Source: a virus. From it: a stretch of 31,666 nt of DNA. Below are positions 5,185 through 31,666 of the stretch, in pieces. Each line of letters starts with the position of its first letter. Position 1 is the stretch's first letter. A program made the position numbers and the translations under genes. The stretch lies in IMG/VR virus record IMGVR_UViG_3300001851_000078, positions 1 to 31,666 of that record, one strand, 5' to 3'. A model generated the notes under the pieces. The model saw only the letters and a program-made list of their open reading frames with translations. It was not told where the DNA came from and ran no database searches.

Positions 5185-6150
5185 TTAGTTTGCGAAGATT
5201 TTCCATGCGGTCCCGTCCGACCATACCATGACTTTATTAGCGCCACCACCAGCCACGGTGCTTCCGATTGTGGTTGCGTTGGCGTCGGTCACATACTGGA
5301 TGCTGCCAGCGTTTCCGGCTGCGGCGGCAGGGAGGGCAGAGACCGCGACGCCGGAGTGCTGCGATCTGCGCAGAATTAAATCCCGATACTGAACAGCAGT
5401 CCCTGAATCGACTTCGAGGATTCCGGCGGCGTTGCGGGCAAGGCCGGTGTCTTTGGTGCCGTAAAAAGTAGTATCTGAACTGAACCTAATCAGGCCATTA
5501 CTAGCAATTTCCACTCCAGACGAAAGCGCTCCGCTATTATCGACATTCGCTACTATGGAACCGTATAACGCCCCGCCGCTAGTTGCGCGAGAAATTATAC
5601 TACCCGCATTGTTTTGAATTTCAAATAAATTCGTAATCGACTGCCCGGCCCCCGCCCGCACGATGACTTTGGTGACGCCCGTGACAGCCGTGAGGTCGTA
5701 AAACTCCGCCGTAGCCGTGGAGCCGCTGGAGTACACGCCTAATTTGGCGTTGCGGTCGGTGGACCCTCCGAATTGAGTGTTTCCTGTATTTCCCTTGATT
5801 GAAACCGCTGCATTAAATCCGGTGTCGTTAAAAACATAACCGGCTGCCTGCGTTGTGTTAAAGGTCGCCACTGTCCCACTGTTTACGATTTGAGTCGCTC
5901 CGTTGCGCAACGCTATTTCGGCCCCGCTTGGACCAAGCCGAACGCTATACGTCGATGAATTCGTATATCCTCCGGCATACAGATAACTGCCTGATGTGTC
6001 CCAAAACAGCTTCGTCGCATCCTGATTCAGAACCCCGCTCGCCGAGACATAAGGGATCGCGCCGACGGTGGTGAGGTTGGACGCGCCGCCGACCGCACCA
6101 CCAGTCGGAGATCCTGAAAGCGTCTTGGACCCGATCGTAAAAACAGCCAT
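5185..6150 (-). CDS. Second tail-fibre/appendage protein
   Basis: A 321-residue protein, rich in G, A, S, T and N, starting MAVFTIGSKTLSG. The fibre-like features are short repeated beta segments, GNTGNTQFGGSTDRNAKLG, and a C-terminal block VSALPAAAAGNAGSIQYVTD followed by AGGGANKVMVWSDGTAWKI. That C-terminal block is common at the ends of phage fibre and appendage proteins. There is no S74 chaperone here. It lies upstream of the large fibre gene in the same operon and could be a shorter fibre or a connector. Family assignment is from composition and the C-terminal pattern. Confidence 0.75.
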   Translation of the reverse strand: MAVFTIGSKTLSGSPTGGAVGGASNLTTVGAIPYVSASGVLNQDATKLFWDTSGSYLYAGGYTNSSTYSVRLGPSGAEIALRNGATQIVNSGTVATFNTTQAAGYVFNDTGFNAAVSIKGNTGNTQFGGSTDRNAKLGVYSSGSTATAEFYDLTAVTGVTKVIVRAGAGQSITNLFEIQNNAGSIISRATSGGALYGSIVANVDNSGALSSGVEIASNGLIRFSSDTTFYGTKDTGLARNAAGILEVDSGTAVQYRDLILRRSQHSGVAVSALPAAAAGNAGSIQYVTDANATTIGSTVAGGGANKVMVWSDGTAWKIFAN

Positions 6151-14486: not shown

Positions 14487-17189
14487 CTAATAGTATTGGC
14501 GGTCAACTGGAGCGTACTCTTCCTCCTCCTCGTCGAGCTTGGATTGGATAAAGCCACCCATTCGGAACCGCAATAGCGCCTGGGTCATCGAGTCGACCAA
14601 GTCGTCATGCTCTCCGTTCGGGAAAAGAGCGAACTCTTCGATTAGATCCTCAGCCCAATGCCGCGCCGGTATCCATATATATCCACTTGCGAACAGGTCA
14701 CTGATGGCGTTCACGCGGGACAGCTTGTCGCCAGTCCTCGATGTCGGCGTATAGTCGGACATCGGTATCCCCATTTTCCGCATGTCGTTCAACAGAGGCA
14801 GGCCAGCCGCCTTTGCTTCGATAATACAGGTGTCAGGCTGGAACTGCTTGTACTTCTCCAGCGCCTTAATTTTGAGGTCCGAATACTCCAACTTCCACTT
14901 CTGCGCATCCAGCACGATGACGTTGTAGATCGACTTGCCGTCCTCATTGGTGCTGGTGAACACGCCAACCGTCACGCAAGCTGAGTAGTCGGATCGGGTG
15001 TTCGCGGTATACGCTGTGTCCCACGACTGGATAACGTACTCGCACTTCGGCGGCGGAAGGTTATGGTCAATCTCCCCAAGTTCGATCGATCCGTCCTGCT
15101 TACGGATACTCCTCTGCCCCCATATTTTCCAGAACTCACGCTTGATGATGGCGCTCTCGTCGGACCTAGGGTCTTGCAGGTACTGGGCGTACCACTTCCA
15201 AGACGGGAGCGTGGCTTTCAGCTTCAGTAGTTCACTGACAGGCCATCTCTGCGGCCATAAAGAGTCGTAGGATGGCTGTCCATCTGCGTCAAGTACCTGC
15301 TTCCCGTTCTCATCCGTCTTCTCAAGTAATGCTGGCAGTTCGATAATTTCCCATTGATCGCCGTCTCGCTTGACCTTCATGTCATCCATCAACCTGCCGA
15401 CGAGATCGAATGGTGCCCAACGCTGCATCACGATGATGATCGACCCACCCGGTTCAATACGGCCACGGATAGAGGTGAACCAGTTGTATACCTTCTCGAA
15501 GTCCTCCTTCGATGGCATCTGGTTAGCAGCACCTTGGTTGACGATAGCCTGCTCGGATATGGGATCGTCCAGGATTAAAAGGTGCGCCCCGCGCCCGACC
15601 ACCGTGCCGCCAGCACCGACAGCGAAGTATCGACCACCCTTGTTTGTGTTCCAACGGCCCTTGGCTGACGAGTCCGCAGCAAGCGACACGCCAGGGAATA
15701 CCTTCTTGTAGTCCTCGGAGTCGACAAGGTTTCGGATCTTGCCGCCGAAGTCTTCAGCCAGAGACTTGACGTTCGACGCTTGGATGATGTGCTTTTCTGG
15801 GTGCTTGCCGATGTACCACGCTGGGAATAAATAACTTAGTCTTTCTGAGTTGTGCGTAACGATAAAGTTACGGCCACAAAGGAACAGCCCGTCGCTGGCC
15901 TCGACTTCAATGCAAACCGTATCCCCTCGACCATATGGTTCAACATAAAGCATCCTGAGGCCGAACTTCTTCGCGTCTCTACTCCGATCTCGCTTCCTCG
16001 GCAAAGAAGCTGCGTCTTGCATGAAGAAGGTGACTTGGTGGCAGTCCATATACCGAACTCCGTTAAGAACACCCTTCCGTGTGTTTATCGATGCCTTAAC
16101 TCCTAGGCTGTGGACTAGCGACGCAACCTGCTCTGCGATATTCCTATCAGTTGAATGGTACAGGCAGATTCCGCTCTTCATCACTTCGCCGTCTGTATCC
16201 ATCAATCCATTTAGCAAATCCATCCGCTGCCGAACTGACGAGAACAGGTACTCATCCGGTATATGCTTGTTCCTGATCTGCATGGTTTTGTGCAGCACAT
16301 TACGAAGACCTCGAAGAGTCCACCCCTTGCCGTCTCCGTGAGGAGTAGCATCAACCCCGCGCTCTCTAATCTTCTGGATGATGAACTCGGCATCTGGATA
16401 ACACTTAGTGATCGTATTGCCGCAACTGTTGCCATCGCCAATCCACACCCCAAAAACGTATGGGTCGATAGGCAGTTCTCGCTCTGGCAATTCTATTGGA
16501 CCCCAAGATGGAATCGCTGGCGGTCTCGATTCTCCATTAACACCGCTCTCTCTCGTATTTTGCCTGTCTGAAACCCAAGCAGATGTTCGGTTGGACCATT
16601 TTTTTGATTTTCGGTCAACGCGAACTGTCCAAACATGATTCTCGTCCGATAGGACGCTATATCCATCACTTGTAGTCGCTCGATACAGCGGTCTATCAAC
16701 GAACACTTGAGACTTGCCAATCACACGCGTCGGCTGACCGTCTACCCCGAAAACAAAATCGCCAACTTCAAGATCAACTATTCGCTTAAACCCAGATGGA
16801 GTCGGTATCGGCGTGTTTATTTCCAGAGCTTTGCCGAACCGAGGCGGAAGGCACACGATCGCGCGTACAGGCTCCCCGGCATCGATGCGATGAAATATCT
16901 TCTCCAGTTCATCGAAGTGCGGCCCTGGAATATTCCCCGGCCACATCTCGTTCACGAAGTCTTTGAAGAACAACCGGCACCGATCGCGAGTCTGCAGTTC
17001 CTTCAGCTTCGCCATCTTCTCAAACACGATCCGGCGCTTGTCGTCAGGCAAGCCCATGACCGCATCGTGCAGCGCCTGCGTGCCGATCTTCTGCTTAATG
17101 GCCCTCTGAATCTCCTCCATCGCGGCGAGTGATTGCCGCGCTCTCATGTCTGGATCTACGACAGCTTTCTTTTTCTTCAGTGGTGGCAC
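14487..17189 (-). CDS. terL: Terminase large subunit precursor with in-frame intein
   Basis: The 900-residue precursor contains a terminase of about 573 residues after removal of an intein (residues 121-447). The ATPase Walker A is LPPRFGK (114-120) continued by S448 after the intein. Walker B is HLLILDD (536-542). The RNase H-like nuclease has D724 (QSWDTAY), E791 (IIEAKA) and the HDDLVDS cluster (861-867). The enzyme pumps DNA into the prohead through the portal and cuts the concatemer. The start is GTG at 17189-17187, the first possible one after an in-frame TAA. A TATAAT box ends eight bases upstream. It is the first gene of the late operon; no small terminase gene precedes it. Confidence 0.95.
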   Translation of the reverse strand: MPPLKKKKAVVDPDMRARQSLAAMEEIQRAIKQKIGTQALHDAVMGLPDDKRRIVFEKMAKLKELQTRDRCRLFFKDFVNEMWPGNIPGPHFDELEKIFHRIDAGEPVRAIVCLPPRFGKALEINTPIPTPSGFKRIVDLEVGDFVFGVDGQPTRVIGKSQVFVDRPLYRATTSDGYSVLSDENHVWTVRVDRKSKKWSNRTSAWVSDRQNTRESGVNGESRPPAIPSWGPIELPERELPIDPYVFGVWIGDGNSCGNTITKCYPDAEFIIQKIRERGVDATPHGDGKGWTLRGLRNVLHKTMQIRNKHIPDEYLFSSVRQRMDLLNGLMDTDGEVMKSGICLYHSTDRNIAEQVASLVHSLGVKASINTRKGVLNGVRYMDCHQVTFFMQDAASLPRKRDRSRDAKKFGLRMLYVEPYGRGDTVCIEVEASDGLFLCGRNFIVTHNSERLSYLFPAWYIGKHPEKHIIQASNVKSLAEDFGGKIRNLVDSEDYKKVFPGVSLAADSSAKGRWNTNKGGRYFAVGAGGTVVGRGAHLLILDDPISEQAIVNQGAANQMPSKEDFEKVYNWFTSIRGRIEPGGSIIIVMQRWAPFDLVGRLMDDMKVKRDGDQWEIIELPALLEKTDENGKQVLDADGQPSYDSLWPQRWPVSELLKLKATLPSWKWYAQYLQDPRSDESAIIKREFWKIWGQRSIRKQDGSIELGEIDHNLPPPKCEYVIQSWDTAYTANTRSDYSACVTVGVFTSTNEDGKSIYNVIVLDAQKWKLEYSDLKIKALEKYKQFQPDTCIIEAKAAGLPLLNDMRKMGIPMSDYTPTSRTGDKLSRVNAISDLFASGYIWIPARHWAEDLIEEFALFPNGEHDDLVDSMTQALLRFRMGGFIQSKLDEEEEEYAPVDRQYY
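15849..16829 (-). mobile_element. Class 3-type intein with LAGLIDADG endonuclease in TerL
   Basis: A 327-residue intein interrupts the terminase P-loop between K120 and S448. It begins with Ala (ALEINTPIPTPSGF), not Cys or Ser, and ends VTHN before the +1 Ser. The class 3 signature is visible: Trp in block B (NHVWTV, W187, intein position 67) and Cys in block F (TVCIEVEASDGLFLCG, C426, intein position 306). Two LAGLIDADG motifs, YVFGVWIGDG (244-253) and LLNGLMDTDG (325-334), carry acidic residues at D252 and D333, so the homing endonuclease looks intact. Splicing should restore a standard GKS P-loop. Class 3 inteins use the block F cysteine as first nucleophile. Confidence 0.9.
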
Positions 17190-19825: not shown

Positions 19826-19855
19826 TTGCAATCAGCTTTTCTGGTATGTTATGTT
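19826..19855 (+). promoter_or_regulatory. Candidate promoter for the small-gene operon
   Basis: TTGCAA (19826-19831), an 18-base spacer and TATGTT (19850-19855), seven bases before the ATG at 19863. The overlapping repeat TATGTTATGTTATATT also contains a second -10-like TATATT (19855-19860) and the 11-mer shared with the region upstream of the HNH gene, which could be an operator. Confidence 0.4.
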
Positions 19856-19862
19856 ATATTCA

Positions 19863-20021
19863 ATGGCGAAAACAAAACTCAAAACTGAACACATCACGCT
19901 CCTGGTCGACAAGGCCGTTCTGCGTGGTGTCTCGGCGCGGTGCAAACAACTTGGCGTCTCGCGGTCGCAGTACCTGCGAGAGCTTGTGCAGAAGGACTTG
20001 GAGGTGAAGAATGCTGGTTAA
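19863..20021 (+). CDS. Ribbon-helix-helix (CopG/Arc-like) small protein
   Basis: A 52-residue protein: basic N-terminus (MAKTKLKTEHITLLVDKAVL), then helix one (RGVSARCKQLG) and helix two (VSRSQYLRELVQKDLE). Strand, helix, SRSQ turn and helix is the typical ribbon-helix-helix pattern, as in CopG or Arc repressors. It is the first gene of its operon and may bind the repeated TATGTTATGTTA sequence just upstream. There is no clear ribosome binding site; the ATG lies seven bases after a TATGTT box. It overlaps the next gene by 11 bases. Confidence 0.75.
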   Translation: MAKTKLKTEHITLLVDKAVLRGVSARCKQLGVSRSQYLRELVQKDLEVKNAG

Positions 20022-25188: not shown

Positions 25189-25521
25189 ATGACTAACGAT
25201 CAGTGCAAGCTGATAGCTACGAAGCTCTGTGGCTACCAAGTCCAAGTCTCACCCGCTGGCAAATACTACATCGTGACGGATGATGGGACGAGGCCACTCC
25301 CCGACTTTGAGGTTGATGCCGCAGAGACGCTGTCGACGGTGGAGGCGCTGTGCAAGAGTCGAGATTGGAGCATTTGCCTCGTTAAAGGCAAGGAAAACTA
25401 CATTGCTGGATTTGGCGGTGCTGGCGCTAGAAACACTACTATCACTGCCGCCATCGCCGCCTGCCTGCTGCAGATCGCGGAGGATGACTCGCCGACGAAC
25501 TGCCGAGAGGAGGTTGTTTGA
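25189..25521 (+). CDS. Phage protein of unknown function
   Basis: A 110-residue protein starting MTNDQCKLIATKLCGYQVQV. It shows beta-like parts (SPAGKYYIVTDDGTRPLPDF) and a helix-rich C-terminus (TTITAAIAACLLQIAEDDSP). The composition recalls small phage and plasmid proteins with a 'TAAIAACL-x-IAED' ending, a pattern seen in several unrelated phage early proteins, but no function is known to me. Its TGA overlaps the methyltransferase TTG (TTGA). Confidence 0.6.
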   Translation: MTNDQCKLIATKLCGYQVQVSPAGKYYIVTDDGTRPLPDFEVDAAETLSTVEALCKSRDWSICLVKGKENYIAGFGGAGARNTTITAAIAACLLQIAEDDSPTNCREEVV

Positions 25522-26342
25522 AACCTCTAGCTATTGATCTTTTCGCTGGATTAGGCGGATGGAGTGAAGGATTCCTGTCTGAAGGCTACCGCGTAGTTGG
25601 CTTCGACATCGAACGCCACCAGTACGGAGACGATAAATACCCGGCACAACTGGTTATCCAAGACGTTCTCACGCTACATGGGTCGCAGTTCAAAAACGCC
25701 ACTGTCATCGTCGCGTCGCCCCCGTGCCAGACGTACTCATTCATGGCGATGCCGTTCAAACTGGGCAAGCAGCGTGCTGCTGAGTATCGAAAGATGACGC
25801 AAGAACAAAGAGACGCCACGCTAAATGCTCTATTTAACGCCTGCTTCCGTATCCAGCGTGAAGCATCAGAAGCCGCTGGCAGGCACATACCTCTAATCGT
25901 TGAGAACGTGCGCGGGGCGCAAGAGTGGGTCGGCCCGTCGAAAGCGAAGTTCGGGTCATTTCACTTATGGGGTGATGTTGGCATGGTTGGGGATTCAGTG
26001 GTGGCTGGGAAGTTGAAATTAGGCGGTGGAGTTAGGCCATTCAGTCAAAGCAAGCAGGCTGGTCTATCAGTCCCTGCATGGGTCCCATGTGAATGCTGTG
26101 ATGAGTTCGTATGTACCATCCACAACCAACACGCATGTGATTGTCCGTGTCCTCCGATAGATGAGTGGGAAAAAGACCCGTATTCAGCAGGAAGCCAAAC
26201 AGCAGAAGCCAAACACGGGTGGTTCCATAAAGGAGCGGCTGCATATGGCTCTAAATCTAAAGCCAGAAAAGAATCATCAGCCAAAATGGCCAAGATCCCA
26301 TTCGCTCTTTCTCAATACATCGCGAGGTCTTTTAAGCCATGA
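25518..26342 (+). CDS. DNA cytosine-C5 methyltransferase
   Basis: A 274-residue enzyme that should add methyl groups to cytosine in phage DNA, probably against host restriction. Motif I is FAGLGG (9-14); the catalytic PC is in SPPCQTYSF with C70; the ENV motif is at 129-131 (VENVRGAQEW). Motif X-like residues close the protein (KIPFALSQYIARSFKP). A cysteine cluster at 191-211 (CECCDEFVCTIHNQHACDC) may bind zinc. It is shorter than typical Dcm enzymes. The TTG start overlaps the previous stop, with GAGAGGAGG upstream. No partner restriction enzyme is present. Confidence 0.9.
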   Translation: MKPLAIDLFAGLGGWSEGFLSEGYRVVGFDIERHQYGDDKYPAQLVIQDVLTLHGSQFKNATVIVASPPCQTYSFMAMPFKLGKQRAAEYRKMTQEQRDATLNALFNACFRIQREASEAAGRHIPLIVENVRGAQEWVGPSKAKFGSFHLWGDVGMVGDSVVAGKLKLGGGVRPFSQSKQAGLSVPAWVPCECCDEFVCTIHNQHACDCPCPPIDEWEKDPYSAGSQTAEAKHGWFHKGAAAYGSKSKARKESSAKMAKIPFALSQYIARSFKP

Positions 26343-26503
26343 CACCCGCCCATAAAGCCCTATCCCGCAAGCTCGCCGACCCTAAGCGGCTGGCTAAGCT
26401 CCTCGAAACGCTACGAGCCAACAGACCGCCATGGACATGCGGGGTTATGGAAGACGAGACGTTGATCCGCGAGACGCTGAAGTATATGGGGGTGGAGGTG
26501 TGA
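26339..26503 (+). CDS. Small helical protein, unknown
   Basis: A 54-residue protein starting MTPAHKALSRKLADPKRLAK and continuing LLETLRANRPPWTCGVMEDE. Two helices with a proline break. The ATG overlaps the methyltransferase TGA (ATGA); its TGA overlaps the next ATG (TGATG). No clear family. Confidence 0.55.
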   Translation: MTPAHKALSRKLADPKRLAKLLETLRANRPPWTCGVMEDETLIRETLKYMGVEV

Positions 26504-26709
26504 TGACCTGCACCCCCTGCCAGTACCAAGGCCCGAGGGACGACTTCAGCCTATACACCGCAGACACCTGCTGGCGATGCTGCACAGCACCCTGCATCCG
26601 CATCCCATCCGCCTTCACACCAAGAGTCCAAGGCTACAAACGTAACGACTACCATGCCGGCAAGCGAGCCAGAGGGCGTAGGCTGAAGGTTACTGGCATA
26701 ATGAGGTAG
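26503..26709 (+). CDS. Small cysteine-rich protein
   Basis: A 68-residue protein starting MTCTPCQYQGPRDDFSLYTA, with six cysteines in the first 34 residues (C3, C6, then DTCWRCCTAPC at 26-36), suited to bind zinc. The rest is basic (RNDYHAGKRARGRRLKVTG). It starts by TGATG overlap, with GGTGGAGG upstream, and its TAG overlaps the next GTG. Nucleic-acid binding is plausible; function unknown. Confidence 0.55.
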   Translation: MTCTPCQYQGPRDDFSLYTADTCWRCCTAPCIRIPSAFTPRVQGYKRNDYHAGKRARGRRLKVTGIMR

Positions 26710-27026
26710 TGAAGGAATCAGAAGTAGTTAAAGCGTGCGTCGAATGGGCGCACTCACAGGGATGGCGACCGGATCGTAACCATGTTGGGGTGTTCGCCAC
26801 CCAGCACGGAGCCAAGGTCCACATCGGCCACAAAGGCCAACCTGACTGGAGGTTTGTTCGCGGAAATCCACTTCTGTACTTCGAGTGCGAATTTAAGAGA
26901 CCGGGCGAAAAACCGCGCAAAGAGCAGATGGAATATATGGCCCTCCTGCGCTATAAAGGCATTCCGTGTTTCTGGGCAGATTCGCTGGAATCGTTCAAAC
27001 AACAGGTTGTAGCACTTTTCGGCTGA
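26709..27026 (+). CDS. VRR-NUC domain nuclease
   Basis: A 105-residue protein with the VRR-NUC pattern: SEVVKACVEWAHSQGW, HGAKVHIGHKGQPDWRFV (D of the PD-like G-x-PDW segment), YFECEFKRPGEKPRKEQMEY (E-x-K) and IPCFWADSLESFKQQV. Stand-alone VRR-NUC proteins are structure-specific nucleases of the Holliday-junction resolvase type and are common in phages, where they may process branched replication intermediates. The start is GTG at 26709, overlapping the upstream TAG. It ends the operon. Confidence 0.88.
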   Translation: MKESEVVKACVEWAHSQGWRPDRNHVGVFATQHGAKVHIGHKGQPDWRFVRGNPLLYFECEFKRPGEKPRKEQMEYMALLRYKGIPCFWADSLESFKQQVVALFG

Positions 27027-27042
27027 CCCCTACATTTCGCGG

Positions 27043-27071
27043 TTGAAACTTCGTTCTTGCGGTAGTACGCT
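27043..27071 (+). promoter_or_regulatory. Candidate promoter for the replication operon
   Basis: TTGAAA (27043-27048), 17-base spacer, TACGCT (27066-27071), eight bases before the ATG at 27080. The AAAGG just before the ATG could also be a close ribosome binding site. The -10 is weak, but the geometry matches the other operon heads. Confidence 0.4.
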
Positions 27072-27079
27072 TGAAAGGC

Positions 27080-27223
27080 ATGACCAAAAAAAAGAACGAG
27101 GCAGCAGTGTCTCTGGCTGCTCTCCGCAAGAAGAAGCTATCTCCTGAGCGCCGATCAGAAATAGCCAAGATTGCCGTCACGGCAAGATGGGCGAAACAGA
27201 AGCAGAAAGCAGCGCAAGCGTGA
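27080..27223 (+). CDS. Small basic helical protein
   Basis: A 47-residue protein starting MTKKKNEAAVSLAALRKKKL and continuing SPERRSEIAKIAVTARWAKQ. It matches the common 'L-x-P-E-x-R-x-x-x-A-x-x-A-x-x-A-R-W' pattern of small basic bacterial and phage proteins that may bind DNA. It is the first gene of the replication operon, two bases before the helicase ATG. Confidence 0.6.
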   Translation: MTKKKNEAAVSLAALRKKKLSPERRSEIAKIAVTARWAKQKQKAAQA

Positions 27224-27224
27224 T

Positions 27225-28652
27225 ATGCCGCCGCTCAAACTTCGCCAGTACCAAATAGACGACATCGAGCGCATTCGCGCTGAGATCAGGTCTGACAAGA
27301 AGCGTGTTGTCTACGTCCTCGCCACAGGGGGCGGGAAAACCGTCATCTCTGCCGAGATCATCCGCAGTGCGGTAGCGAAGGGGTCGAAGGTATTCTTTGT
27401 TGCTCACCGCAAGGAGTTGATCGACCAGACCAGCAACAAACTTCACGATTTCGGCGTTCGTCACGGCGTGATGATGGCCAATCACCCCCTACGCGACCCA
27501 AGCGCACCAGTGCAGGTTATATCGATCCAGACTGGAATACGCCGCGAACTCCCATACAAGCCGCACCTTGTGTTCGTGGATGAGTGCCATCGCATTGCGG
27601 CTGAGTCCTACAAAGACTTCCTGCTCGACTGCGGAGATCCTGTCGTCGTCGGGATCACCGCCACTCCTGTACGGGGAGACCTACAAGGACTCGGAGGGAA
27701 GATCTTCCAGTCTATGGTCGTTGGTCCGCAGATGTCATCGCTCATCCAGCAAGGGTTCCTAGTTAAGCCTCGCGTGTTTTCATGGAAGATCAACCTCAAA
27801 GGAGTGCGACTTCTCGGCGGAGACTACAATCAGAAGCAACTCGAAGAGAAGATGATCGACACGAAGCTAGTCGGCGACGTATACCGCGAGTGGGTAAAGC
27901 GCTGCTCGGATCGGTCCACTGTGGTCTTCGCGACCAGCATTGCTCACTCAAAAATGATCCTCGACGATTTTCTCGCCAACGGAGTCGCCGCAGAGCATAT
28001 CGACACAAAGACGCCCAAAGAGGACCGAGAAGCTGTTCTGTCTCGACTCGCCAGCGGCTACACGCAAGTCGTGTGCAATGTCGGGATCCTGACAGAAGGC
28101 TGGGATTGTCCTCGCGTTTCCGCAGTATGTATCGTTCGCCCGACTCGCTCAGAGTCGCTTTACTTGCAAATGGCTGGGCGGGCGCTTCGGCCATGGGGTG
28201 ACAAAACCGATTGCATCGTCAATGACCATGGCGGGGTAGCGCAGGAGTTCGGGACGCCGGACATGGACCGCGAATGGGAACTGGACGACACCACGATTTC
28301 AAAACCAGAGAAGTTGGATATCCGTGACAAAATCAAGGTCTGCCCGAAATGCGCCGAGGTCTACGATATTTCGGTTTACACCTGCATTTGTGGGTACCAG
28401 TTCTCCAAGAAACCAGACGATATTAAGTACGGAAGCGGCGAGCTTCATGAAATCGACTACAAAATCAAGCGAGAAGAAAAGTCCAAGCGTAAGGATTACG
28501 AGTGGTTCCTCCATCAGCAACACACGATGAAGAAAGCTGATGGGACTCCGTACTCACACGGATTTGCGTTTGCAAAGTATTTATCCAAATACGGCGAGAA
28601 ACCGTCCTGGTCGTGGCTAAAAGAGTGGAAGAAGAAAAACAATGTCAGCTAA
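27225..28652 (+). CDS. SF2 DEAD/DEAH-type helicase
   Basis: A 475-residue ATP-dependent helicase. Walker A is ATGGGKT (33-39), motif II is DECH (119-122), motif III TATP (145-148), motif V TEGWD (290-294) and motif VI QMAGRALRP (315-323). A zinc-ribbon with CPKC (373-376) and CICG (387-390) lies after the second RecA domain. The closest general type is the RecG/UvsW/YqhH-like phage SF2 family, which remodels forks or recombination intermediates. I choose ATG 27225 rather than 27171, because the longer form would overlap the previous gene. It overlaps the primase gene by 11 bases. Confidence 0.92.
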   Translation: MPPLKLRQYQIDDIERIRAEIRSDKKRVVYVLATGGGKTVISAEIIRSAVAKGSKVFFVAHRKELIDQTSNKLHDFGVRHGVMMANHPLRDPSAPVQVISIQTGIRRELPYKPHLVFVDECHRIAAESYKDFLLDCGDPVVVGITATPVRGDLQGLGGKIFQSMVVGPQMSSLIQQGFLVKPRVFSWKINLKGVRLLGGDYNQKQLEEKMIDTKLVGDVYREWVKRCSDRSTVVFATSIAHSKMILDDFLANGVAAEHIDTKTPKEDREAVLSRLASGYTQVVCNVGILTEGWDCPRVSAVCIVRPTRSESLYLQMAGRALRPWGDKTDCIVNDHGGVAQEFGTPDMDREWELDDTTISKPEKLDIRDKIKVCPKCAEVYDISVYTCICGYQFSKKPDDIKYGSGELHEIDYKIKREEKSKRKDYEWFLHQQHTMKKADGTPYSHGFAFAKYLSKYGEKPSWSWLKEWKKKNNVS

Positions 28653-30690
28653 CCGAGTCGTCGAAATCAACTCTGTGCGCCCAATCGTTCTCGATTCGAC
28701 GCAACCTCTCACGTCGTCCGACCGTGAGAAAATCTGTCAGGAGCACTGGCTCACCAACGCCGACATCGACGCAGCACACATAACCCGAGTCAACGACGCG
28801 ACAGGCCGTGAACTCACCGGGTGGATGAAACGGAACTGCGCCGGAATCTATATCCCATACCCAACGCTCGACGGGCGCAGCAGCTACTACTTCAGGATCC
28901 GGCGAGACGTGCCGGATATGACGATCCAACTCGACGGGTCGACGAAAATATCCCGCAAATACGCCGCCCCGTATGGATCCAGAAACCACATCTATTTCCC
29001 CTCCGGCGTCACGCAAGCCCAACTATCCGACGCCACACTCCCGGTAATCGTCACCGAGGGCGAGTACAAAGCCATGGCGCTCTGGCGGCTGGCAAACCAC
29101 AAAACCGACACCCCACGATTTATCCCCATCGGGCTGGGTGGCGTGGACTCGTGGCAAGGGCGTAACGGGAAAACTCCCCTGCCGGACGGCTCATCAACCG
29201 ACTCCTACGGGATCATCCCTGACATGTTCCGCGTAACGTGGTCGGAGCGAAACGTCATCATCGCGTTCGATTCAGACTGGAAACGCAATACGAGCGTCCG
29301 AGCAGCCAAGCGCCGACTATCCGACGAACTCAAAACAGGCGGCGCTAAAGTCGTCACGCTGAACTGGGACGAGCGGGACGGCAAGGGTATCGACGACTGG
29401 CTAGCCACGGTCGGACCGGATCCAGTCCTGTCAGCCATCAACGGCATCAACTGGGACATCACAACCGGCTGGCTTTCTATGCTCCAAGTCGACGACAAGG
29501 GCAAGCCAGTCAAAAACGTCCTTAACGTCGTCACCGCGCTCACTCTCGCCCCTGAGTGGGAGGGCGTTATCGCCTACAACCAATTCACCGCCGCAATCCA
29601 GACCGTCACCCCTCCCCCATTCGGCGATAAACACCGCAGCCGATCAATCCTCAGCCCAAACCGACAAGACTGGACCGACGCCGACGATATCCACGCATCC
29701 ATGTGGCTGCAATCCAAGGGACTAAACGTCAGCAAGGAGATGGCGTCAGATGCAATCCATGCAATCGCCGACCTCACGCAGTTTCACGTCATCCGAGACT
29801 ACCTGAACTCGCTCTCGTGGGACGGCGATAAGCGAATCGATACGTGGCTTCAAGACTACATGGGCGCGGATCCATCGGCATACCTGTCGAAAATCGGAAA
29901 AATGTGGCTTATCTCCGCCGTGGCTCGCGTTTTCAACCCCGGATGCCAGGTTGACCATATGCTCGTCTTCAAAGGCTCTCAGGGGCGTGGAAAATCGACA
30001 GCTTTGTCCGCTTTATGCGGCGAGGACTGGTTTTCCGACAACCTGCCGAACAAATTACACGAAAAAGACGCCTCCCAGCACCTATCCGGCAAGTGGATCA
30101 TCGAAATCGGCGAACTCAGCCAGATGAAATCCAACGAGGTCGAGGAGATCAAGCTGTTCGTCTCCAGGAAAATCGACAAATACCGACCCAGCTACGGTCG
30201 CCGCGACTGCTCATTCCCACGCCAGTGTGTATTCGCCGCCTCAACCAACTCCGACGAATTCCTACGTGACGAGACAGGCAACCGGAGGTTCTGGGTCGTA
30301 CCCATAAACGGAGTCGACGTGCGCGGCATCGCGGAAAACCGGGACCAGATATGGGCCGAGGCTGTCCAAATGCTCCGCGATGGCGAAAAATGGTGGTGTA
30401 GCGAGCCGTGGTTCATCGAAGCACAGGAAAATTCATCGTCGAACTACATGATCCTCGACCCGTGGCACGAGCAGATCAAGAATTACGTCAAAGGGAAAGA
30501 GCGGGTGTTCGTTAATGACGTGCTCCTTGAGGTTTGCCGTGTCTCTGACACCTGGACCAAGAACCATCGGGACCGCGTTTGCTCCACGCTGAGAAAATTA
30601 AAGTTCGTTCGTAAACGCATAAAAGACAACGGTGGGTACTTTTTTACCCCGGCGCGAGCAACCGATCGGGAGGACGAGGAGGAGGAGTAG
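28642..30690 (+). CDS. Primase (DUF3854/TOPRIM) fused to VirE-type helicase
   Basis: A 682-residue replication protein. The N-terminal half has a TOPRIM-like domain: VIVTEGEYKA (135-144, E139) and IIAFDSDW (D210, D212). The C-terminal half is a virulence-associated-E (VirE) SF3-type ATPase: Walker A GSQGRGKS (445-452), Walker B WIIEIGEL (485-492), sensor AASTN (532-536) and GNRRFW (546-551). The tail is acidic (EDEEEE). Such fusions prime and unwind DNA at the origin of phages and mobile elements. It ends 24 bases before a strong terminator and next to the candidate origin. Confidence 0.92.
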   Translation: MSANRVVEINSVRPIVLDSTQPLTSSDREKICQEHWLTNADIDAAHITRVNDATGRELTGWMKRNCAGIYIPYPTLDGRSSYYFRIRRDVPDMTIQLDGSTKISRKYAAPYGSRNHIYFPSGVTQAQLSDATLPVIVTEGEYKAMALWRLANHKTDTPRFIPIGLGGVDSWQGRNGKTPLPDGSSTDSYGIIPDMFRVTWSERNVIIAFDSDWKRNTSVRAAKRRLSDELKTGGAKVVTLNWDERDGKGIDDWLATVGPDPVLSAINGINWDITTGWLSMLQVDDKGKPVKNVLNVVTALTLAPEWEGVIAYNQFTAAIQTVTPPPFGDKHRSRSILSPNRQDWTDADDIHASMWLQSKGLNVSKEMASDAIHAIADLTQFHVIRDYLNSLSWDGDKRIDTWLQDYMGADPSAYLSKIGKMWLISAVARVFNPGCQVDHMLVFKGSQGRGKSTALSALCGEDWFSDNLPNKLHEKDASQHLSGKWIIEIGELSQMKSNEVEEIKLFVSRKIDKYRPSYGRRDCSFPRQCVFAASTNSDEFLRDETGNRRFWVVPINGVDVRGIAENRDQIWAEAVQMLRDGEKWWCSEPWFIEAQENSSSNYMILDPWHEQIKNYVKGKERVFVNDVLLEVCRVSDTWTKNHRDRVCSTLRKLKFVRKRIKDNGGYFFTPARATDREDEEEE

Positions 30691-30713
30691 CCCACGCCAA
30701 TTCAGCCAATCTC

Positions 30714-30739
30714 AGGCTCCCTTCACCGGGAGCCTTTTT
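30714..30739 (+). terminator. Strong rho-independent terminator after the replication operon
   Basis: AGGCTCCC (30714-30721), six-base loop TTCACC, GGGAGCCT (30728-30735), then a T tract to 30739. Perfect 8-bp GC-rich stem. It closes the operon before the repeat region. Confidence 0.9.
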
Positions 30740-30743
30740 CACG

Positions 30744-30987
30744 TTCCATGCCGATTCCATGGGTTCCACATCGATTCCATATCTATTCCACGTCTAACTA
30801 CCTGAAAATCCATAGAGTTCCATGTCTTCTATATAATAGTGTGTGTGTACACGTATAATAATATAGAAAGTTGGTGGCTATCACGCGCGGCACTCACCAG
30901 TAGAAAAGTTTGTCACAGTTCTGTGTGGACATGTGGAACTGATGCAAACACAAGACTTAACTATATCCGAATTCCATATAATTCCAC
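30744..30987. other. Candidate replication origin: phased TTCCAY repeats and AT-rich inverted repeat
   Basis: Eight direct TTCCAY copies start at 30744, 30755, 30764, 30775, 30786, 30818, 30972 and 30982; an inverted copy lies at 30933-30938. Spacing inside the left group is 9-11 bases, near one DNA turn, with a degenerate copy ATCCAT at 30808. The extended consensus is TTCCAYRT. Between the groups lie two perfect TATAAT boxes (30832-30837 and 30854-30859) and an imperfect AT-rich inverted repeat (30827-30838 with 30857-30868) around GTGTACAC. No gene is seen from 30691 to 31039. The origin role is inferred from repeats, AT-richness and the neighbouring primase/helicase. Confidence 0.6.
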
Positions 30988-31039
30988 GTCTCCCCTCGTA
31001 CTATTGACATCTGATGCGTAAGTATCTGAAAATACAGGC

Positions 31040-31336
31040 ATGGCTATTTTGTACTCCAGACCACCTTTAACCGAGCGAGAGGCCGAACTTCGCTCCAGGA
31101 TGCTCGAACAACGGCGGCAAGAACGCCTGAGAAGTGATAAGAGATTATCAAATAAGCCTAGAAACCCTAGCCACAAGCAATGCGTGGAGTGTCTTGACGA
31201 CAAATCAGCCTCCGAGTTCTATGCAAGCCCGACCTCAGCCGACCGCCTGACATCAAAATGCAAAGCCTGCCTCGCTGAATACCAGCGCTCCAGGGCTGGC
31301 GTCATAAAACTTCGCCGCTCCCTGCGATGGGAATAG
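31040..31336 (+). CDS. Small zinc-finger protein (endonuclease VII-like metal site)
   Basis: A 98-residue protein starting MAILYSRPPLTEREAELRSR. It has a basic helical N-terminus and a zinc module CVECLDDKSASEF, with the second pair CKAC after YASPTSADRLTSK (C-x2-C...C-x2-C). This module is common at the start of HNH/recombination endonuclease VII proteins, but the nuclease part is absent here, so a DNA-binding role is likelier. A TTGACA (31004-31009) lies upstream, with no convincing -10. It follows the repeat region. Confidence 0.6.
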   Translation: MAILYSRPPLTEREAELRSRMLEQRRQERLRSDKRLSNKPRNPSHKQCVECLDDKSASEFYASPTSADRLTSKCKACLAEYQRSRAGVIKLRRSLRWE

Positions 31337-31666
31337 ACCACCCTTGCGCCTAAACAGACGCCGGGCACCCCGCACTACCTCCCCCACCCATAAAACCGCC
31401 CCACGAGGCTGCAATGCGGAAATTTGCCATACCCACCGCCAGGGGTACCTTTTCACCACCACCCCCTCGCCATATCCAGCTTCCACACGCCAACCCAGGA
31501 ATTCCTAAACAGCCCCGGTGGGGGTAGTGCCAGAATCCAAGCGCCAGACGCCCGTGGAGCGACGATTATGGGCTGGAAGGTAGCTGGAGGCGGGACGGCG
31601 GTAAAAACGCCTCAGAGGGCGGGGAAACGGGTCTGGACCACTCCAGTGGTTTAGGGTCAGGGAGGA
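31337..31666. other. Terminal 330 bases without a recognisable gene
   Basis: The stretch is C-rich at first (poly-C/CA-type runs near 31376-31390 and 31458-31467) and G-rich later. It contains the inverted repeats CCCCGGTGGGG (near 31514) and ACCACT-CC-AGTGGT (31637-31650), and one extra TTCCAC at 31481. A 76-codon frame at 31424-31654 is low-complexity and proline-rich and I do not believe it. No terminator, tRNA or gene start is convincing. Confidence 0.5.

Follow-up and report, generated by a model that had tools for sequence, protein, structure and literature searches.

We describe here a cluster of short repeats in an uncultured virus (record IMGVR_UViG_3300001851_000078, whose whole 31,666-nt stretch we call the window) that, as read from sequence, is probably a replication origin, or the initiator-binding part of one required in cis, of the kind known from the SaPI/PICI ori and the P4 crr. 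The cluster, at 30744-30987, lies directly behind a gene for a VapE-type primase-helicase. An iteron origin had been suggested here in the initial annotation, and this reading is supported by position-specific repeat clusters behind vapE in other phages, by the P4 crr and plasmid pGO128 as positive controls, and by homology of the upstream protein to SaPI1 Rep. That annotation also knew of no described origin with this repeat; our own search likewise turned up none. Origins of this type are known, however, so the window very probably holds a new example of a known origin kind. The elements of the region are as follows.

26709-28652, + strand: VRR-NUC-like gene and DEAD-box helicase gene, in the same replication module as vapE
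28642-30690, + strand: VapE-type initiator gene, 682 aa, the probable repeat reader (Pfam, phmmer, Foldseek)
30454-30667, + strand: C-terminal winged helix-turn-helix domain, candidate iteron-binding domain (AlphaFold2 model)
30714-30739, + strand: intrinsic-terminator hairpin of the vapE transcript, read from the sequence as AGGCTCCC-TTCACC-GGGAGCCT-TTTT
30744-30791, + strand: left iteron array, five TTCCAY at 30744, 30755, 30764, 30775 and 30786 (pattern count, shuffles, PWM)
30808-30813, + strand: degenerate iteron ATCCAT, in helical register (PWM)
30818-30823, + strand: sixth strong left iteron, TTCCATGT (pattern count, PWM)
30827-30868, no strand: imperfect AT-rich dyad containing two TATAAT boxes, proposed as the melting region (DNA fold z=-3.1)
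30933-30938, - strand: inverted iteron (pattern count, PWM)
30972-30987, + strand: right iteron pair, 10 bp apart; a similar pair, GAATTCCATGAATTCCAAG, occurs in sister phage G003
31004-31033, + strand: sigma70-like candidate promoter, TTGACA-18-GAAAAT, of the gene that follows (consensus match only)
31040-31336, + strand: 98-aa zinc-motif protein, endonuclease VII/Lar-like (PHROG 1035, E=3.7e-9)

All nine copies of TTCCAY first reported for the cluster are in place, eight direct (starting at 30744, 30755, 30764, 30775, 30786, 30818, 30972 and 30982) and one inverted (30938-30933 on the - strand). Across the whole window TTCCAY occurs 44 times against 30.8 expected, with a density outside the cluster close to chance; within 30741-30990, where 8 copies are observed, none of 5000 dinucleotide-preserving shuffles gave any hexamer class (5-mer plus Y/R) as many as 6. 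A PWM built from the nine sites scores all of them far above background, the weakest being expected at most 0.05 times per 350 bp, and adds one degenerate copy, AAATCCATAGA at 30808 (score 6.4), which is weak alone because about one such site per 350 bp is expected by chance. The extended form TTCCAYRT fits seven of the nine copies, with the RT missing at 30744 and 30755. Spacings run, in order, 11, 9, 11, 11, 32, 115, 39 and 10 bp, so that the 9-11 bp steps originally given for the left group apply to its first four intervals but not to the fifth. Helical phasing of this group was confirmed (vector strength 0.96 at a 10.5-bp period, including the degenerate copy taken at 30807; the PWM position, 30808, changes little). 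The AT-rich inverted repeat with its TATAAT boxes and the terminator hairpin were likewise present as first described, the latter being absent from the output of a consensus scan. AT content reaches 72% in 30816-30865, and two iteron sets of unequal size, the left array and a right group of three, flank this AT-rich region. The PWM search found no mirror symmetry in the array, Rfam gave no match to the repeat region, and neither the window nor the overlapping assembly G001, both of them genome fragments, contains another TTCCAY cluster.

Short repeats can arise in AT-rich DNA, and exact-word repeat tests score the window weakly (z 1.5; 2.7 with one mismatch), as might be expected of a chance or low-complexity artefact. 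These tests miss the array because its iteron is short and degenerate; a 7-mer pair statistic gives z 4.8. Chance as the source of the repeats themselves is ruled out by the 0/5000 shuffles together with the presence of the cluster in a second assembly of the virus, and we regard an artefact of this kind as extremely improbable. That assembly, G001 (IMGVR_UViG_3300001849_000143), represents the same virus and runs 6.5 kb beyond the window. Positions 31533-31620 of the window and L005:5926-6014 show ~22 differences, the two assemblies being otherwise identical over 26 kb; with identity resuming to the window end, this is a strain-variable or recombinant patch. It is overlapped by a second zinc-motif endonuclease VII/Lar-like ORF that follows the one at 31040 (L005:5960-6316).

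The upstream gene had been called a primase/VirE helicase; its position directly before the repeats and its primase-helicase nature hold, and the family is VapE-type TOPRIM-helicase rather than VirE. The 682-aa product consists of a DUF3854/TOPRIM-like primase (Pfam DUF3854, E=1.6e-17), a VapE SF3/AAA+ helicase (VapE-like, E=1.8e-81) and a C-terminal winged helix. By sequence it matches structure 7pds (phmmer E=1.9e-48), deposited as PriRep1, "similar to D. nodosus vapE", which we take to be SaPI1 Rep; the full model aligns to the same structure in Foldseek over ~450 columns covering helicase and C-terminus (E=2e-29). In the AlphaFold2 model of the C-terminal 99 aa, helices at 24-33, 41-47 and 57-69 and wing strands at 72-76 and 83-87 are predicted mostly at pLDDT 84-93. 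For this domain 7pds ranked third in Foldseek with a weak E=0.096, and in a VIA re-alignment its Z of 5.7 was equalled by many unrelated winged helices; the P4 origin-binding domain was absent among the Foldseek and VIA matches listed, an absence that carries no weight. The winged helix is likely the iteron reader. A search of prokaryote genomes for VapE by exact peptide patterns found none. As for the neighbouring genes of the module, the DEAD-box helicase is assigned by ResIII (E=4.8e-26), and the VRR-NUC-like gene, which has no Pfam match, by its order beside the DEAD helicase, as in Paenibacillus phages, and by tblastn to phages G003 and G005.

Although blastn of the repeat region found no DNA homologue in the phage collection, the same layout recurs behind vapE in most sampled clusters of phage contigs, complete named tailed phages included. 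The DNA just 3' of vapE carries the repeat word GGTCACCCC in Marinobacter phage PS3, CTGTCCCAC/AGTAGGACA in Pseudomonas phages U5 and Haddon, and ACTGCAACA in Paenibacillus phages, none of them annotated in the feature tables of these phages. Our survey, begun with 84 loci, was extended to 164 VapE loci forming 58 clusters at 70% identity, 57 of them with enough downstream DNA. Repeat enrichment at z>3 within 300 bp after the vapE stop was found in 67% of the 57 clusters, compared with 63% for a window straddling the stop, 25% at the next step and 0-6% for most windows farther away on either side; 15 of the 57, about a quarter, had no detectable repeat cluster after vapE. In diverged phages, repeat clusters are tied to one position, the DNA that directly follows vapE. 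A search of related phages for the window's own word was less fruitful: an exact TTCCAY cluster turned up only in G001, and no other relative was found to combine a similar VapE with this motif. Iteron motifs vary from clade to clade, with a TCCA core also present in several other VapE clades (TATCCATA, TGTGTCCA, TGGATACA). Motif sharing climbs with similarity of the C-terminal domain when expressed as bin means (0.02 to 2.28), but the Spearman correlation is weak (rho 0.06, p=0.07). With helicase similarity controlled for, no partial correlation is left, and the trend does not set the C-terminal domain apart from the helicase domain. Many arrays are mirror-symmetric, such as those of L043 (21-11-45-10-9 | 73 | 10-9-44-11-21) and PS3 (9-23-33-9-9 | 80 | 9-9-33-23-10); the commonest spacing across 42 clusters is 9 bp, and a 12-44-9 run occurs in 11 of these 42, the maximum in 2000 order shuffles being 6. 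The window has a diverged C-terminal domain and an array lacking both the 12-44-9 spacing and the mirror symmetry of many relatives.

Two known replicons served as positive controls. In P4, alpha and its terminator are directly followed by the crr (annotated "cis required region for replication"), and our scan recovered its type-1 repeats (GGTGAACA x10, spacings 14-18-43-9-96-14-18-43-9). The order of gene, terminator and directly downstream iteron cluster is that of the window, the P4 iterons being 8-bp, and P4 alpha is likewise a primase-helicase with a C-terminal winged helix. Unlike the window, the P4 crr consists of two 120-bp repeats with a 14-18-43-9 geometry, and P4 has ori1 as a separate site; the window spacings do not follow the 12/18-43-9 iteron geometry of the P4 kind. 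In pGO128, a 4.3-kb natural plasmid whose VapE protein is the only annotated replication candidate, the repeat cluster behind vapE stands out at z=14.5, with none in three other stretches tested.

The closest described layout is that of the satellites. The iteron origin that a SaPI Rep protein recognises follows directly on the protein's own gene (PMC7581432; PMC6092414); in PICIs the origin is the stretch that immediately follows the initiator gene at its 3' end, it always comprises AT-rich DNA bracketed by two sets of iterons, and plasmids can replicate from rep-ori segments (PMC6092414). The window resembles these origins (SaPI1, SaPIbov1, EcCICFT073) in the position of the site immediately 3' of the initiator helicase gene, in its two sets of short iterons around AT-rich DNA, and in its initiator, which is homologous to SaPI1 Rep. 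It departs from them in belonging to a tailed-phage genome instead of a satellite, in its TTCCAY iteron, in the make-up of its two sets (a large array of direct copies and, on the right, a smaller group of mixed orientation), and in a TOPRIM-like rather than AEP primase part. A further parallel is SCCmec Cch2 (D5/Primase_Cterm), whose C-terminal domain binds AAGTG direct repeats downstream of its own gene (PMC7581432); here too the repeats follow the gene, with a different helicase family and motif.

Drawing on these systems, we infer binding, melting, loading and origin activity at 30744-30987. The VapE-type primase-helicase encoded immediately before the repeats would bind the TTCCAY iterons via its C-terminal winged helix; helically phased sites would put several subunits on one face of the DNA, nucleating one hexamer or two; the likely melting site, the AT-rich dyad that separates the repeat groups, would open; and the helicase would load itself while its N-terminal TOPRIM-like domain primes. 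Cumulative GC skew, proposed earlier as a check, does not decide where the origin lies: over the window plus G001 there is a local minimum near 32 kb, but the lowest point is at 17.2 kb, where gene direction flips. The skew minimum of G005 (44.4 kb) falls inside its repeat cluster, whereas that of G003 does not fall inside its own.

Comparison with the 61-kb sister phage G003, whose late genes match those of the window at 96-98% identity over large parts, bears on which protein reads the repeats. G003 has no VapE, its place being taken by a PrimPol-D5 helicase. The segment corresponding to window 25369-31441 is replaced by PrimPol-D5, DEAD helicase, VRR-NUC-like and PAPS-reductase-like genes between nearby stretches that are homologous on both sides; this is a modular initiator exchange. 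Absence of the cluster from close relatives had been named in advance as evidence against an origin, and G003 indeed lacks an exact TTCCAY cluster, yet it carries TTCCA sites in the matching place behind its different helicase: TTCCA is the most enriched 5-mer behind the PrimPol-D5 gene (7 copies, 0/1000 shuffles). D5 relatives of G003 have GCGTTCCA arrays around AT-rich DNA. The G003/G005 clade thus resembles the window in having TTCCA/GCGTTCCA repeats that flank AT-rich DNA behind the helicase gene, with (in G003) a shared backbone, and differs in its initiator (PrimPol, D5_N, DUF5906) and in repeat polarity. Because TTCCA sites stand behind a non-VapE helicase in G003 and its relatives, the reader in the window may not be VapE. 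Perhaps another phage or host factor reads the origin, was kept through initiator replacement and recruits whichever helicase is present; we consider this unlikely, since the polarity of the D5 clade (TGGAA left, TTCCA right) is opposite to that of the window and many VapE phages, and since more distant D5 genes are followed by other motifs (AGGGCA, CTCCCA x12), so that the motif varies with the helicase. The TCCA core in several other VapE clades, furthermore, makes convergence plausible. The shared TTCC core of the window and the D5 phages may have arisen by convergence, may mark a limit on which initiators can replace one another, or may be read by a third factor; that the TTCCA core was actually kept while PrimPol-D5 and VapE helicases were swapped, through a third-factor reader or an incoming initiator matching the resident origin word, seems to us a rather doubtful but not negligible prospect. 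Two further observations concern this group: in L205 a PrimPol-D5-like gene with its stop at 5982 is followed by 12 CTCCCA copies, another candidate iteron origin, and the DEAD-box helicase of G005 (L178:6928-9669, - strand) has an intein-like insert at Walker A (GAGKCLGKGT ... VTHNTTIAAAL).

Two functions other than an origin can be proposed for the repeats. A gene for the small terminase subunit (TerS) lies ~1 kb past the cluster in the overlapping contig, and its adjacency is conserved in G001, G003, G005 and L187, as would suit a packaging site (pac/cos) bound by TerS. However, D5 phages L188 (46-kb contig) and L185 carry the same GTTCCA cluster with no detectable TerS homologue in their records, which makes TerS unlikely as the common reader, and clusters lie behind vapE in P4, pGO128 and phages without such a TerS in the stretch examined; a packaging site is accordingly a highly improbable account. 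The large terminase subunit of this virus (14487-17189, - strand) is interrupted by an intein that contains a LAGLIDADG homing-endonuclease domain and is inserted in the ATPase motif (...FGKALE ... VTHNSERL...).

The right iteron pair also lies just upstream of the TTGACA-like -35 at 31004, and the window encodes at 19851-20021 (+ strand) a 56-aa protein, ribbon-helix-helix-like and weakly matching VapB antitoxin, that may be a small regulator. Both would fit an operator or promoter array through which a repressor or activator controls either the gene for the 98-aa protein (31040) or early transcription. The promoter matches are only weak, though, and clusters behind vapE remain whatever gene comes next, leaving control of transcription as the main role very unlikely; auto-regulation may nevertheless accompany origin function.

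The cluster offers a directly testable origin in an uncultured phage, and on this reading the origin kind is much more widespread among ordinary phages than one would gather from the literature. The gene by itself would allow candidate origins to be predicted in numerous phage genomes, and the code linking winged-helix sequence to iteron word would be opened to test.
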